Source: an uncultured Bacteroidales bacterium
GTDB lineage: Bacteria > Bacteroidota > Bacteroidia > Bacteroidales > JAFGXI01
Assembly: GCA_947311115.1 (NCBI GenBank)
Contig: CAMZKE010000015.1
Span: forward strand, 1 to 50,022
Direction of reading: 5' to 3'
DNA: 50,022 nt
The first letter of the stretch is position 1; every line of letters starts with the position of its first letter. The notes below the pieces were generated by a model. It made no database searches. It saw nothing but the letters and a program-made list of their open reading frames with translations, and was not told the origin of the DNA. Position numbers and translations under genes: made by a program. Of the stretch, positions 279-6,331 are shown piece by piece.

Positions 279-330
279 TTTATATATTTTTTGAAATGAA
301 CTTTTTTGAAATATAGTTGTATTTATTGTG

Positions 331-374: not shown

Positions 375-1523
375 ATGAAAACAATATATTTATTTTTATT
401 AATCTCATTAACAAGTTTTAACTTTGCTCAAGTGCAGATTAAATCATTTGCCGATAAAAAAGAATCGCAAAATTTTTATACAGAACAAGCGAAATTATGG
501 AAATCTGAAATTGATAAAAATCCTAAAAATGCCAATGCTTGGCAAAACTACTATAAAGCAATTAGATACAACTTTAAGGTTTATGATGTTAACTCTCAAA
601 AAGTATTAGATAATATTTTGGTTGATATGCAAAAAGTATTACCAAATTCGTTTGAGTATAATTATTTGATGTATTATAATTCTACAGATTGGAGTGAAAA
701 CATTGAATATATTGAAAAAGCATATAAAATTAATCCTAATAATGTTGAGCTATATCCGAGCCTAATTACATGCTTTGAGGTAACAAACCAAAAAGAAAAG
801 CGAAATGATATTTTAAAACGATGGTATAAATCAAATACTTTAGAAACCTGGAAATATTATTTAAATTATAACGCTTTAGCTTTTTTAGATTCAAATGCAA
901 TTATTTTTTCATCTGGTGACAACACTATTTATCCTAAATTATTACTACAGCAGGGAGGTAATATTAGAAAAGATGTTAAAGTTATAACTCTACCATTTAT
1001 TATTTACAACAATGGTTATTACTATAATTATATACTTAAAGAGCTTGATATTGATAATTTTAATGAAAAAAATATTGAAATTGATGAAAAATCGGATACT
1101 CCTAAATATTTACAAATGGCAATTGCTAAAATTAAATATATAATTGAAAATACAAACCGCCCAATTTATTTCGACTACAATTATTATCCTAAAATAACAC
1201 CTGCATTTAGCAAAAATCAGTATTTAGAGGGTGTTGTATATAAATATAGTAAAGAGCCATATAATAATATAGCTATTATAAAACGAAATTTTGAAAATAA
1301 TTATTTGTTAGATTATATAAAAACAGATATTGAAGTTATAAAATCGAATGTGCCGGAAGCTTATGGATATGGGTATATTATGCCATTAGATGTATTATAT
1401 AATTATTATAAAGATGCCAATAACACTTTTAAACAAGAGCAAACTAAACGGCTTATTTACAAAATTGGCAAAAAATGTGGTTTACTCGATAAAATAAAAA
1501 AAGTTTACGAATCTGAAAAATAA
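375..1523 (+). CDS. Exported TPR-like protein with GDN motif (paralogue 1)
   Basis: A 382-residue protein with a clear Sec signal peptide (MKTIYLFLLISLTSFNFAQ). The N-terminal half has helical TPR-like segments such as the stretch around NPKNANAWQNYYKA. The middle contains NAIIFSSGDNTIYPKLLLQ followed by RKDVKVITL. This resembles the soluble part of DUF2723/TMEM260-type proteins (NGDND...RTDVRV), although the membrane part of that family is missing. The next gene is a clear paralogue with the same layout, only 5 bp downstream. Both precede an ECF sigma factor, so a role in an envelope signalling circuit is inferred. I do not recognise a specific function. Confidence 0.8.
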   Translation: MKTIYLFLLISLTSFNFAQVQIKSFADKKESQNFYTEQAKLWKSEIDKNPKNANAWQNYYKAIRYNFKVYDVNSQKVLDNILVDMQKVLPNSFEYNYLMYYNSTDWSENIEYIEKAYKINPNNVELYPSLITCFEVTNQKEKRNDILKRWYKSNTLETWKYYLNYNALAFLDSNAIIFSSGDNTIYPKLLLQQGGNIRKDVKVITLPFIIYNNGYYYNYILKELDIDNFNEKNIEIDEKSDTPKYLQMAIAKIKYIIENTNRPIYFDYNYYPKITPAFSKNQYLEGVVYKYSKEPYNNIAIIKRNFENNYLLDYIKTDIEVIKSNVPEAYGYGYIMPLDVLYNYYKDANNTFKQEQTKRLIYKIGKKCGLLDKIKKVYESEK

Positions 1524-1528
1524 CACCT

Positions 1529-2686
1529 ATGAAATATACAATTATAATATTAATAATGATTGCAATAGTTGCAAAATCACAAAAATTAGAGCAAATACAA
1601 TCTATTGTTAATCAAACTAAAGATTCTGTTTTTTATAAAGAACAAGCTAAACTATGGGAAATAGAAACAAAAAAATCTTCAAAAAATGCAAATGCGTGGT
1701 TCAATTATTATAGAGCCGTTAAGTATGGTAATTATACTCGACATATCTATTCAAATAAGAATTTAATTACTATTATGGATAAAATGAAAACTGATATTCC
1801 TAATAGTTTTGTATATAATTATTTAATGTATTATAATGGTGGTAACAACAAAAAATATGCAAATTATTTGCTAAAAGCATATAAAATTGAACCTGAAAAC
1901 CCAATAGCATACCCATCGCTTGTAACATATTGTGATATTGTTGGAAATACAAAACTAAAAAATGAAGTTCTAATTCGGTGGTATAATTCAAATACTTATC
2001 CGGTGTGGAAATTGTATAATGCATATAATTCATTAATTGGCTTAGATAAAAACTCAATAATTATTAGTAATGGTGATAACAATGTATATGCTAAGCAATT
2101 ACTACAAGCAACTAAAAAGACACGAACAGATGTTAAACTGATTTTAATGTCGCTTTTATACATCGATAATTATTATCAAAAAACCTTAAAAGAGCTTAAA
2201 ATATCTGCCAAATTTGAAAATTTTAACCAATTTGCACAACAAAACACTAAAATTAATGGTCAAGAATTAATGAATTTATTATTAGCGAAACGTGTTGAAT
2301 ATATTGCTTCATCAATAAAAAATAAATCGGTATATATTGATAATTCGGGAATAGAACAAGTTGAAGAATATTTAAAAGATAAGTTATATTTAGAAGGAAT
2401 AGTCTATAAATTTTCAGAAAAAGAATATGATAACACAGCTAGAATGCAACAAAATTTTGAACAAAAGTATTTATTCGATTTTATTAAATTTAATTATAAG
2501 CCCTTGAATAAATACTCTTCGCAAAAATATGTAACCGGAAGTTATTTAACATTTTTAACCGAGCTTTACAATTTTTATAAATTAAGCTATGATATAAATA
2601 ACAAAATAAAAGTTGAGAAATTGCTAAAAATAATTGCTAAGAATATTGGTATTGAAACCGAGATACACAAATTAATTAATGAATAA
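1529..2686 (+). CDS. Exported TPR-like protein with GDN motif (paralogue 2)
   Basis: A 385-residue paralogue of the preceding gene. It shares a signal peptide (MKYTIIILIMIAIVAKSQ), the EQAKLWE...KNANAWFNYYRA segment, PNSFVYNYLMYYN, and NSIIISNGDNNVYAKQLLQ followed by RTDVKLI. Divergence along the whole length points to an old tandem duplication rather than a recent one. Its 3' end overlaps the sigma-factor start by 8 bp (ATG at 2679), so translation of the two is probably coupled. The sequence around the GDN motif resembles part of DUF2723 proteins, but this is an eye-level match only. Function unknown; periplasmic or outer-membrane location inferred. Confidence 0.8.
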   Translation: MKYTIIILIMIAIVAKSQKLEQIQSIVNQTKDSVFYKEQAKLWEIETKKSSKNANAWFNYYRAVKYGNYTRHIYSNKNLITIMDKMKTDIPNSFVYNYLMYYNGGNNKKYANYLLKAYKIEPENPIAYPSLVTYCDIVGNTKLKNEVLIRWYNSNTYPVWKLYNAYNSLIGLDKNSIIISNGDNNVYAKQLLQATKKTRTDVKLILMSLLYIDNYYQKTLKELKISAKFENFNQFAQQNTKINGQELMNLLLAKRVEYIASSIKNKSVYIDNSGIEQVEEYLKDKLYLEGIVYKFSEKEYDNTARMQQNFEQKYLFDFIKFNYKPLNKYSSQKYVTGSYLTFLTELYNFYKLSYDINNKIKVEKLLKIIAKNIGIETEIHKLINE

Positions 2687-3233
2687 AAAAAGTATCATAA
2701 TCAGCGATGAAGAATTATTAAAGCAATTTTGCGAAGGTAACACATTGGCTTTCGAAAATTTGTATAGCCGTTATTATGCAAAATTGCTTTACTTCATCAC
2801 ACAAATGCTTGGCAATACCGAAAATGCAAAAGACATATTACAAGAAGTATTTATTAAAATTGTAGAAAATAAATGTAAATTCGATTTTAATCGAAAATTT
2901 TCGGTTTGGATATACTCTATCGCAAGCAATATGTGTAAAAATAAATTTAAACATAATGCTGTAGTTAAAAAAGCTGCTAACGAAATTTTATATACTACAA
3001 GCAAAATAGAAGAAGTAAACACAACAATCAACGAAAAAAAAATAGCAATACGCAATGCAATTAAAAAGCTTGATATTAAACACAAACAAGTATTTATTTT
3101 AAGACACAGCTATTCGTTTAGCTTTAAAGAAATTGCTAATATTTTAGAAATATCAGAAGGAACCGTTAAATCAAGAATGTTTAATTGTATAAAAAAAATA
3201 TCGGAACAAAAAGAAATACAGGAGGTAAAATAA
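2679..3233 (+). CDS. ECF-type RNA polymerase sigma factor (sigma-70 family)
   Basis: 184 residues, the normal ECF length. Region 2 is seen at about residues 22-90 (ENLYSRYYAKLLYFITQ, DILQEVFIKI, FSVWIYSIASN). Region 4 lies at about 127-180, with KHKQVFILRHSYSFSFKEIANILEISEGTVKSR providing the helix-turn-helix. It should direct RNA polymerase to a dedicated set of promoters. It overlaps the upstream exported-protein gene by 8 bp and the downstream membrane-protein gene by 1 bp (TAATG), so the four genes look like one transcription unit. ECF factors are commonly held by an anti-sigma protein encoded next door, and the following gene fits that position. Confidence 0.93.
   Translation: MNKKSIIISDEELLKQFCEGNTLAFENLYSRYYAKLLYFITQMLGNTENAKDILQEVFIKIVENKCKFDFNRKFSVWIYSIASNMCKNKFKHNAVVKKAANEILYTTSKIEEVNTTINEKKIAIRNAIKKLDIKHKQVFILRHSYSFSFKEIANILEISEGTVKSRMFNCIKKISEQKEIQEVK
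3220..3225 (+). promoter_or_regulatory. Shine-Dalgarno site deciding the start of the putative anti-sigma gene
   Basis: AGGAGG lies 7 bp before the ATG at 3233, in an overlapping TAATG stop/start. This favours 3233 over the ORF-track start at 3185, which would overlap the sigma gene by 49 bp. Such a strong site is uncommon here, where most genes lack one. Confidence 0.7.
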
Positions 3234-3871
3234 TGGACGAAAAATTATTACATTTATTAGAAACAAAAAACTTTTCGCAGCTAACTGCTAATGAAAAACA
3301 ATTTGTATTACAAATTATTACAGAGCAAGAATATAATGAGCAACATAATATTTTATTAATTTCTTCAGAAATTATTGATGAAGATATAATGACAATCCCT
3401 ATCGATAAACAGCTGCTTTATAAAGTGCTAAAACAAAATAAAATCACATCTATTATTAACTACAAAGTGTCTTTAATAAAAATAGCTGCTGTATTTTTGG
3501 TTGCGATGGTTTCTTACCATATAGTTATGGCTCATATATACAACTCAAACCAACAAGAACCATTGGTTGTACACAATACCGATACAATTTATAAGATTGA
3601 AAAAGTTTATAATACTGATACTGTTTATCTAACCAAATATAAAACAAAAATTGTAAAAAAAGACTGCGATAAGTTAATTCCAAAAATTGCACAATCAACA
3701 TTTGATACGCAAATAAGTAAAGAAAAATTTGAGTATTACAAAAAGAAAATAGCATACGATTTACAAAACAATAAAACTCATAGAAAAGGGAAAAGTTTAA
3801 GTAATCAAACAAATATTTTTAGAGATACTCTATTTCCTGTTGAAGACAATGTTTTTGTTGGGCTGGAGTGA
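3233..3871 (+). CDS. Single-pass membrane protein, candidate anti-sigma factor
   Basis: 212 residues from the ATG at 3233. The first ~80 residues are polar and helical (MDEKLLHLLETKNFSQLTA...), followed by one transmembrane segment (LIKIAAVFLVAMVSYHIVMA) and a polar, lysine-rich extracytoplasmic tail of about 110 residues. A cytoplasmic head, a single TM helix and a periplasmic tail directly after an ECF sigma gene is the usual anti-sigma arrangement. No zinc-binding anti-sigma (HxxxCxxC) motif or FecR domain is visible, so the assignment rests on context. The periplasmic tail has two similar NTDTIY/NTDTVY stretches. It could instead be an accessory protein of unknown role. Confidence 0.6.
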   Translation: MDEKLLHLLETKNFSQLTANEKQFVLQIITEQEYNEQHNILLISSEIIDEDIMTIPIDKQLLYKVLKQNKITSIINYKVSLIKIAAVFLVAMVSYHIVMAHIYNSNQQEPLVVHNTDTIYKIEKVYNTDTVYLTKYKTKIVKKDCDKLIPKIAQSTFDTQISKEKFEYYKKKIAYDLQNNKTHRKGKSLSNQTNIFRDTLFPVEDNVFVGLE

Positions 3872-3875
3872 TAAA

Positions 3876-4913
3876 TTATTTTTTAGGATTTAAAATTTTC
3901 ATTAACGTATCTGTTACATTTGTTGCAATAGTTTGTCTGCCTTTTTCCGCATAATGTTCCGTTGTCCAATCTTGGTCAATAAATTGTTCGTTTTCTACAC
4001 TGTTTAAGTTATCTACTACAGTTACGCCTTTTCTTTGGTAATAGTCAATTAATAATTTTCTATTATATTCTAGAAAATATAATATATCATTGCCTAATAA
4101 TTCTTTTGCACGTTGGGTATTCTCAGCCATTAAGTTAAATACTAATTTCCAATTTCTTTTTTTCGCAATTTCAACAATTTGGTCGAAATCTTTAATTCTT
4201 GGGCTTTTTAATGTATCTATTTGAAACGCATAGGCTTTTATGTAATGGCAAGTTAAATTTTTTAGTTCAAAATTTTTTGTTCCATCAGGATTTAGTACTC
4301 CTTTATGCCAAACATAACCTTCCCAATCTTTTAAATTATCAAAATCAAATTTAAAAGGTAAATTATATTTATCGTGTTTCCATTTATGTTTAAACTGTCG
4401 TTCTCTTTCTTTTTTTGTTTTAATATCATAAGCTTTAAACGATAACATAAACCTATTTATCAATGGTGGATAAGGTCGAAGTAATACTAAACTTTTTTGA
4501 ATAGCTGTTTCTAAGTCTGAATAAATCCATTGTGCATTAAACGACCTTAAATTTAAAGTAACTATGAGTGTTTTAAGTTTATTTGTTTTTGGAATATGAG
4601 AAATAAGTACTTTATATACATCAGCATGACTTGCAGGTTTTGTTATATCATAAATTTTTAATTTTGGGAAATTATCTGCAATAATTGTTGAAATCGCTCT
4701 TTTATCTTTATCATCGCCACGAACAGTGGTGTTTGATGATTCGCCTAAATATACTATATCTGCATTATCAGGTACTTTTCTTACTAAATTTATAATATCA
4801 GAATACTGTTGAATATCTTTTTCAAAAAAGTAAACTTTATATACGTAATTTGATACTACTAAAAATATTATTAAGTAGATAATTCTTATTATTATTTTTG
4901 TTATTATGCTCAT
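3876..4913 (-). CDS. SGNH/GDSL-like membrane-anchored protein, partner of MBOAT
   Basis: 345 residues with an N-terminal membrane anchor (residues ~5-28) and an extracytoplasmic domain. DIVYLGESSN (~residues 52-61) resembles the SGNH/GDSL nucleophile block, and DWTTEHYAEKG near the C-terminus (D~315, H~320) resembles the catalytic Asp-His block. It follows an MBOAT gene with a 2-bp gap. In AlgI/AlgJ-, DltB/DltD- and PatA/PatB-type systems, an MBOAT protein passes acyl groups across the membrane and an SGNH-like partner transfers them to a polymer. The likely role is therefore O-acylation of a surface or periplasmic glycan. The substrate is unknown, and the catalytic residues are assigned by eye. 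Confidence 0.65.
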   Translation of the reverse strand: MSIITKIIIRIIYLIIFLVVSNYVYKVYFFEKDIQQYSDIINLVRKVPDNADIVYLGESSNTTVRGDDKDKRAISTIIADNFPKLKIYDITKPASHADVYKVLISHIPKTNKLKTLIVTLNLRSFNAQWIYSDLETAIQKSLVLLRPYPPLINRFMLSFKAYDIKTKKERERQFKHKWKHDKYNLPFKFDFDNLKDWEGYVWHKGVLNPDGTKNFELKNLTCHYIKAYAFQIDTLKSPRIKDFDQIVEIAKKRNWKLVFNLMAENTQRAKELLGNDILYFLEYNRKLLIDYYQRKGVTVVDNLNSVENEQFIDQDWTTEHYAEKGRQTIATNVTDTLMKILNPKK

Positions 4914-4915
4914 AA

Positions 4916-6331
4916 CTAGAATTGAAAATATATAAATGCGAAATTATCTACTCCGGCAAAAGCAATTATTGCAAAAATTAAAATGCTGTATAATGCCCAT
5001 CTGTATATACTATTTAATTTACTTATTGATTTATCAAACCTACTGTTGTACATAGCAATATCGCTAATTATGAATAAAATTAGAAAAATTACAGTAATAA
5101 TATTAATATTTAATGAGGATTTAATGTCGCGCGAAGTATCAAAAATATATGAAAAAATATTTAGTGCTTCTGCAAAACTTTGACTTCTAAAAAATACCCA
5201 TATTAAACTAATTAAAATAAATGTTTTTAATGATAAAAGTATATGTTTAAATGAAAAGTGAGAATCAATCTGTTTTATTTTAAATATACTGTTAAATAGT
5301 TTTTCTAACAAATAAAATAATCCGAACAATGTTCCCCAAATAATAAATGTTGTGTTTGCACCATGCCATATTCCACTTATAACAAAAACAATAAAAATAT
5401 TTAAAGCCCAACGATAAATTTTTACTCTATTACCCCCTAATGGATAATATAAATAATCTCTAAACCAAGTAGATAACGATATATGCCATCTTTGCCAAAA
5501 TTCTGAAATATTTCTTGCAAGATATGGTGTTTTAAAATTATTCATTAATTTAATCCCCATAATTAAAGCACTTCCAATGGCAATAAGCGAATATCCATAA
5601 AAATCGCTATAAATTTGAAATGAGTATAAAAATATTCCTATTAATATGTCTATTGAGCTATAATCTTGTGGAGTAAGATATATTTTGTCAACAATTGCAG
5701 AAATATTATCAGCAATAACCATTTTTATAAAAAGCCCATAAAGTATTAGTCTAAGTCCATTTACTAAATTATTGTATGAAAAATAATGTTTTTCTTTTAA
5801 TTGTGGTGTTAATCGAGAAAAACGCTCTATTGGTCCGGCAACTAACTGAGGAAAAAATGAAACATAAAGAGCAAAATATCCTAAATGTTTTTCGGCTTGT
5901 TGCTTCCCCAAATACACATCTATTGAATAACTTAGTGTTTGAAAAGTATAAAAACTAATACCAACCGGTAACAGAGCTTTCATTAAAGGAGGCTCAAATG
6001 AAATGCCAAAATTTGAAAATATAGATGTAATACTTTCTGAAGCAAAATTAAAATATTTAAAGGCAAATAAAAGTCCCAAATTTGTAACTAAACTAATGAT
6101 TAAATACGGTTTTCTATCCTTCTTATTCGGCAACTTTGCCATTTTTAGTCCACTATAATAATCAATTAATGTTGAAAAAATTATTAGAAAAATATACTCT
6201 ATTTTCCAACTCATATAAAAATAATAACTTGCTGCTAACAATAATATCCACCTATATTTATTAGGTGTAAGAAAATAACAAAATATAACTATTGGGAAAA
6301 ATATTAAAAAGTCTATTGTATTAAATAACAT
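4916..6331 (-). CDS. MBOAT family O-acyltransferase (AlgI/DltB type)
   Basis: 471 residues and strongly hydrophobic throughout, with about ten predicted membrane segments. Family features are the N-terminal IFFPIVIFCYFLTPNKYRW...SYYFYMSW, the central FFPQLVAGPIERF, NISEFWQRWHISLSTWFRDYLYYPLGGN, and the catalytic-His segment SGIWHGANTTFIIWG. These are the typical AlgI/PatA-type blocks. It should move activated acyl groups, usually acetyl, across the inner membrane for attachment to a polysaccharide. It sits 9 bp after crcB and 2 bp before the SGNH-like partner. The membrane family call is firm; the glycan substrate is unknown. Confidence 0.93.
   Translation of the reverse strand: MLFNTIDFLIFFPIVIFCYFLTPNKYRWILLLAASYYFYMSWKIEYIFLIIFSTLIDYYSGLKMAKLPNKKDRKPYLIISLVTNLGLLFAFKYFNFASESITSIFSNFGISFEPPLMKALLPVGISFYTFQTLSYSIDVYLGKQQAEKHLGYFALYVSFFPQLVAGPIERFSRLTPQLKEKHYFSYNNLVNGLRLILYGLFIKMVIADNISAIVDKIYLTPQDYSSIDILIGIFLYSFQIYSDFYGYSLIAIGSALIMGIKLMNNFKTPYLARNISEFWQRWHISLSTWFRDYLYYPLGGNRVKIYRWALNIFIVFVISGIWHGANTTFIIWGTLFGLFYLLEKLFNSIFKIKQIDSHFSFKHILLSLKTFILISLIWVFFRSQSFAEALNIFSYIFDTSRDIKSSLNINIITVIFLILFIISDIAMYNSRFDKSISKLNSIYRWALYSILIFAIIAFAGVDNFAFIYFQF

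Follow-up and report, generated by a model that had tools for sequence, protein, structure and literature searches.

The stretch of DNA analyzed in this study (the window; 50,022 nucleotides of contig CAMZKE010000015.1 from an uncultured Bacteroidales bacterium) contains four open reading frames, verified on the forward strand, which together form one tight operon (Table 1). P0001 and P0002 are separated by a gap of 5 nt, P0002 and P0003 overlap by 8 nt, and P0003 and P0004 by 1 nt, in keeping with the first-pass annotation of four overlapping or nearly touching genes. The extent given there, 375–3871, is right for the genes but begins 78 bases too late, as the predicted promoter belongs to the unit. 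Also borne out is the description of the first two products as divergent exported paralogues with a common GDN-containing core (hereafter GDN proteins): they are 38% identical, both carry the core, and their N-termini are signal-peptide-like as judged by eye, export and membrane topology of the window proteins being read from hydropathy and eye inspection. The converging neighbors on the reverse strand (3876–6331) resemble, in translation, an MBOAT acyltransferase and a DHHW-like partner; they are not kept beside the operon's counterparts in other genomes.

Table 1. Features of the GDN operon in the window.
Feature	Position	Strand	Details
Predicted ECF promoter of the operon	297..321	+	TGAACTTTTTTGAAATATAGTTGTA; -35-like TGAAC, -10-like TTGTA
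Exported GDN-family protein, copy 1 (P0001)	375..1523	+	382 aa; GDN core ~861-1049; core matches TMEM260-like soluble domain
Exported GDN-family protein, copy 2 (P0002)	1529..2686	+	385 aa; GDN codons 2072-2080; tree sister of copy 1
ECF sigma factor (P0003)	2679..3233	+	184 aa; Sigma70_r2 1e-11, Sigma70_r4_2 1e-10; clade of GDN-linked sigmas
Single-pass membrane protein, probable anti-sigma (P0004)	3233..3871	+	212 aa; hydrophobic segment 3473-3529; three D[ST][AILMTV] motifs in the periplasmic part after it

P0003 matches Sigma70_r2 (44.8 bits) and Sigma70_r4_2 (41 bits) above the cut-offs and, having regions 2 and 4 and no other domain, belongs to the ECF sigma factors. Its score against the FecI-like Bacteroidetes sigma family TIGR02985 is 100.9 bits, under the curated cut-off of 126.4 bits. 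P0004 begins with a short N-terminal part, which is followed by one hydrophobic segment (residues 81–99) and then an outer part. It has no Pfam or NCBIfam match, no known anti-sigma domain and no HxxxCxxC motif. Its single transmembrane segment, conserved N-terminal stretch, predicted membrane orientation and overlap with the sigma gene correspond to the layout of an anti-sigma factor, and P0004 is probably one. This identity of the third gene is supported by the zinc anti-sigma motif HxxxCxxC, which was found only in the equivalents of loci L082, L084 and both L085 operons, and by one NCBIfam anti-sigma match. Members of this anti-sigma-like family generally show an N-terminal ExLLxxKxFxxLxxEExxFVL stretch, followed by the transmembrane segment and a stalk of low complexity. 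The C-terminal end is conserved in most of them, with D at -12, hydrophobic residues at -9, -6, -5 and -4 and, in many cases, L, Y or W at -1. The tail of P0004 (3785–3868) deviates from that of its relatives, which coincides with the unique GDN duplication in the window.

GDN proteins are built of a helical TPR-like part, a core with the consensus NAIIxTxGDNDTYPxWxLQxxxGIRxDVxVxNxxLL and a segment RPVYxxxT...LYxxGL. The first-pass annotation had likened the core to the soluble part of DUF2723 proteins, and profile comparison agrees: both the core and the RPVYxxxT...LYxxGL segment match the soluble C-terminal domain of these proteins (hhalign probability 99.7, E 1e-26). The DUF2723 proteins compared carry PF11028 (TMEM260-like) at the N-terminus, and the GDN profile also matches the human TMEM260 structure in the PDB (9rql, E 6e-6). 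None of 78 GDN proteins matches the membrane-embedded PF11028 domain itself. No Pfam or NCBIfam family covers the GDN proteins, and P0001 and P0002 reach none in these libraries. AlphaFold2 with a two-sequence alignment gave a pLDDT of 55, a fold search with that model returned no match below E 0.001, and the model was left unused. Four GDN proteins (L128, L136, L141, L142) carry a C-terminal FGE-like domain, whose best NCBIfam name is GldK (E 1e-38), and two (L074:5455-7053 and L076:5281-6720) end in a type IX secretion system (T9SS) C-terminal sorting domain. GldK is part of the T9SS ring. The two proteins with sorting domains are probably secreted to the surface and, because of these sorting domains and the GldK-like domains, part of the family is probably located at the cell surface.

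A profile built from P0001 and P0002 was first run against 295 genomes of the order and identified nine further full-length stand-alone relatives, all nine in the order GDN gene, ECF sigma gene, single-transmembrane gene. Wider profile searches of 396 phylum and 395 class genomes brought the family to 78 stand-alone GDN proteins across Bacteroidota; a DUF2723 fragment (L086) and a relative at a contig edge (L147) were left out. An ECF sigma gene lies downstream of 68 of these 78 genes, followed in most cases by a single-pass membrane gene; the relatives were chosen by GDN sequence alone, and the profile seeds were all sigma-linked, so that distant unlinked members are perhaps under-sampled. 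The 68 genes make up 67 operons, the two copies in the window being counted as two genes. Median distances are 0 nt between the GDN and sigma genes and -1 nt between the sigma and third genes, as in coupled genes. The neighborhood survey thus answers the question of random placement raised in the first-pass annotation, with relatives of the exported proteins clearly tied to sigma genes, and the two proteins of unknown function become members of a family associated with one ECF clade and an anti-sigma-like membrane protein.

The same comparison speaks against the "sensor pair" of that annotation. The window is the only tandem locus found, every other operon found has one copy, and the two copies are sisters in the tree; to judge from this, the pair is a lineage-specific duplication. 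Five same-genus and same-family genomes (G001–G005) contain no GDN relative detectable by a single-protein search and no sigma of this clade, and single-protein scans of genome contigs returned no relative. GDN genes are also present in eight genomes that lack this sigma and its promoter. Because GDN occurs without the sigma, while the sigma almost never occurs without GDN, the GDN protein is, on the genomic evidence, one with a function of its own.

The association also holds in reverse. Within 29 GDN genomes, the sigmas linked to GDN rank highest in the sigma search (E 1e-43 to 1e-83), and other ECF sigmas score about 1e-34 or weaker. A GDN gene lies upstream of 32 of 33 sigmas of the clade vs. 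0 of 38 other ECF sigmas (Fisher P = 2e-19). Two extra strong sigma matches were identified, one with a GDN gene upstream (G948:C1, L213) and one without (G944:C138, L214). In the latter (L214:3149-4227), the sigma/anti-sigma pair is preceded by a gene for an 82-aa membrane protein and a promoter-like site. By comparison across genomes, GDN, the ECF sigma and the anti-sigma-like protein constitute a conserved module in Bacteroidota.

Alignment of the upstream regions revealed a dyad, TGAACCTTT-N11-KTGTA, representing a common ECF-type promoter ahead of most operons. It is nearly always 25–26 bases long and mostly situated 35–95 nt ahead of the first start codon. The form TGAAC-N14..19-GTA is present at 47 of 67 sigma-linked loci vs. 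2.2 in shuffles. Scores of a promoter matrix exceed the 99% shuffle level at 53 of 69 GDN genes in genomes with the clade sigma and at none of eight in genomes without it (P 3e-5), the former count being partly circular because 39 of the sites it includes were used to train the matrix. The window site, the sites at unlinked sigma genes and those at DUF2723 genes were outside the training set. At 19.4 bits, the window site has the top score of all window positions, and it is the sole match to its pattern in the 3.5-Mb genome. The second-best position (22858, reverse strand, 16.2 bits) lies antisense within a coding gene and was dismissed.

Two genomes (G760 and G864) have the GDN gene (L150, L154) and the clade sigma gene (L349, L348) at separate loci, and the promoter site is kept at both. 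Of all the observations, this one argues most strongly for control of GDN by the sigma. The comparison indicates that the module, as well as unlinked GDN and sigma genes, carries one ECF-type promoter. Since this promoter is retained at unlinked GDN and sigma genes and is absent at GDN genes in genomes without this sigma, we infer that GDN is a target of the sigma and more than a possible sensor. On this sequence evidence, the operon is predicted to be autoregulated.

A large regulon was not seen with the strict promoter pattern in 33 genomes: most of the 26 matches are at GDN operons and the rest are near the level of the reversed pattern. Strict off-operon matches within coding genes (L253, L257, L268) were taken as chance. 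The off-operon sites that stand out are those at DUF2723 genes (4 of 33 upstream regions vs. 1.2% expected), a subset noticed afterwards and with two of the four genomes from one genus. Each of these genes (G149, G886, G906 and G960; L308, L309, L310 and L312) is the second DUF2723 copy of its genome, with the site at -99 to -197, and first copies lack it. In two genomes of one genus (L274, G874:C20; L273, G996:C10), a promoter-like site is located about 55 nt ahead of a gene for an exported VWA-domain-like protein.

Tree distances of the three proteins were compared across 63 loci. The partial correlation is 0.58 between GDN and the anti-sigma given the sigma, 0.53 between the sigma and the anti-sigma given GDN, and 0.003 between GDN and the sigma given the anti-sigma. 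With DUF2723 as a species proxy in 24 genomes, the pattern is kept (0.58, 0.30 and 0.08, respectively). This chain, running from sigma through anti-sigma to GDN, suggests that GDN contacts the anti-sigma; common evolutionary rates of exported proteins may be another source of the co-divergence.

We propose that the module is an autoregulated three-component ECF switch operating as a feedback homeostat, with GDN serving as its product and also as a partner, and assign this reading a probability of roughly 0.5. The sigma of the clade would read the module promoter, with GDN as its main product; the single-pass protein would hold the sigma at the membrane, and exported GDN would touch the outer part of the anti-sigma. 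As long as GDN is free, the sigma would stay off and the anti-sigma intact. Once GDN is occupied by its own clients, which may be envelope or secreted proteins, the anti-sigma would give up the sigma, and the freed sigma would raise GDN production until a surplus is restored. In the window genome, one switch would work with two diverged copies of GDN. Such a homeostat fits GDN having its own function, the sigma almost never occurring without GDN, and the co-divergence. The joint inheritance of the three parts behind one promoter suggests that the switch sets the amount of exported GDN protein made. That GDN restrains the anti-sigma, rather than releasing it, is our guess.

The module could instead comprise an ordinary sigma/anti-sigma pair with GDN as its dedicated target, working in the envelope and never touching the anti-sigma. 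The promoter ahead of GDN even where it is unlinked would be expected in that case, as would GDN genes in genomes lacking the sigma and the near absence of the sigma where there is no GDN; after partialling, however, GDN co-diverges with the anti-sigma and not with the sigma, and we regard this arrangement as rather unlikely, if worth keeping in mind.

Doubt is greater for a version of the first-pass proposal, extended by autoregulation, in which GDN is a periplasmic receptor that solely relays a signal to the anti-sigma. Export of GDN, the conserved operon and the co-divergence with the anti-sigma are all compatible with it, and the T9SS tails at two loci and FGE-like domains at four could bind something outside the cell. 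Against it, GDN genes are present in the eight genomes that have neither this sigma nor its promoter, and there is no large downstream regulon for such a receptor to serve. Of the earlier idea of a sensor feeding the switch, the link of the family to sigma and anti-sigma stands, but the one-way direction is incomplete, as the GDN gene itself is under the shared promoter of the sigma, even when unlinked, and is present without the sigma.

A specific form of feedback through protein O-glycosylation was also considered. The general O-glycosylation motif of Bacteroidota is D(S/T)(A/I/L/V/M/T) (PMC8729774, PMC12871550), and the outer parts of the anti-sigmas contain D[ST][AILMTV] more often than expected (87 vs. 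33.3, z 9.3), mainly within 45 residues of the transmembrane segment (60 vs. 9.9) and in the last 20 residues (16 vs. 5.5). No comparable enrichment was found in the inner part or for the reversed motif and the E or N variants. Shuffles, the reversed motif and these variants served as controls because other ECF neighbors are too mixed for an anti-sigma control. The enrichment is suggestive only, since relatedness among the sequences was left in and the motif is present in roughly one in two noncytoplasmic proteins of Bacteroidota (PMC12871550). GDN, as an enzyme-free exported TMEM260-like soluble domain, might recognize D(S/T)x sequons both in the anti-sigma and in proteins of the envelope. 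The sigma, freed when glycosylation fails, might then produce more GDN and, in part of the genomes, also a second enzyme of the TMEM260-like type. The domain common to GDN and TMEM260-like proteins and the promoter ahead of second DUF2723 copies would agree with this. We nevertheless consider it improbable: exported proteins of Bacteroidota often contain such sequons, many anti-sigmas of other lineages in the set have none, and no TMEM260-like enzyme is known to be the Bacteroidota O-glycosyltransferase. Chance neighborhood or ordinary packing of genes into operons, free of any functional connection, is contradicted by the survey, by the strength of the association and by the promoter kept after unlinking, and hardly deserves credence.

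ECF switches with an exported third protein include RpoE-RseA-RseB and CnrYXH. The GDN module resembles them in that an ECF sigma, a probable anti-sigma with a single membrane pass and a candidate exported partner are encoded in one operon with predicted autoregulation. It differs in that GDN is unrelated in sequence, as far as compared, comes first in the operon and is the likely main target, and in that the visible regulon is approximately the operon itself. GDN shares its core and the next segment with the soluble C-terminal domain of the DUF2723/PF11028 TMEM260-like protein O-mannosyltransferases; different from these enzymes, it is an exported soluble protein with TPR-like helices ahead of the core. 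In the PorXY-SigP system of type IX secretion in Porphyromonas gingivalis, SigP acts with a two-component system (PMC4800418). Like SigP, the module ties a Bacteroidota ECF sigma to envelope secretion, some GDN proteins having a T9SS sorting tail or GldK-like domain, but it contains no two-component genes. The outer parts of the anti-sigmas share with Bacteroidota O-glycosylation substrates an enrichment in the motif, here beside the membrane and at the tail, and would be candidate substrates; many anti-sigmas of other lineages lack the motif. A literature search of partial coverage, which did not extend to the ECF re-classification, found no description of a GDN/sigma/anti-sigma module. The module is apparently undescribed, and its general type, an ECF switch whose third component is exported, is already known.

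Bacteroidota thus appear to possess a phylum-wide ECF module, unnamed in the family libraries searched, for which a promoter and a main target are defined and an exported protein is the candidate partner. This makes it possible to study input, switch and output in one system. GDN could serve as a soluble substitute for the lumenal domain of the TMEM260-like O-mannosyltransferases, and the module may offer a regulatory handle on protein O-glycosylation in Bacteroidota.
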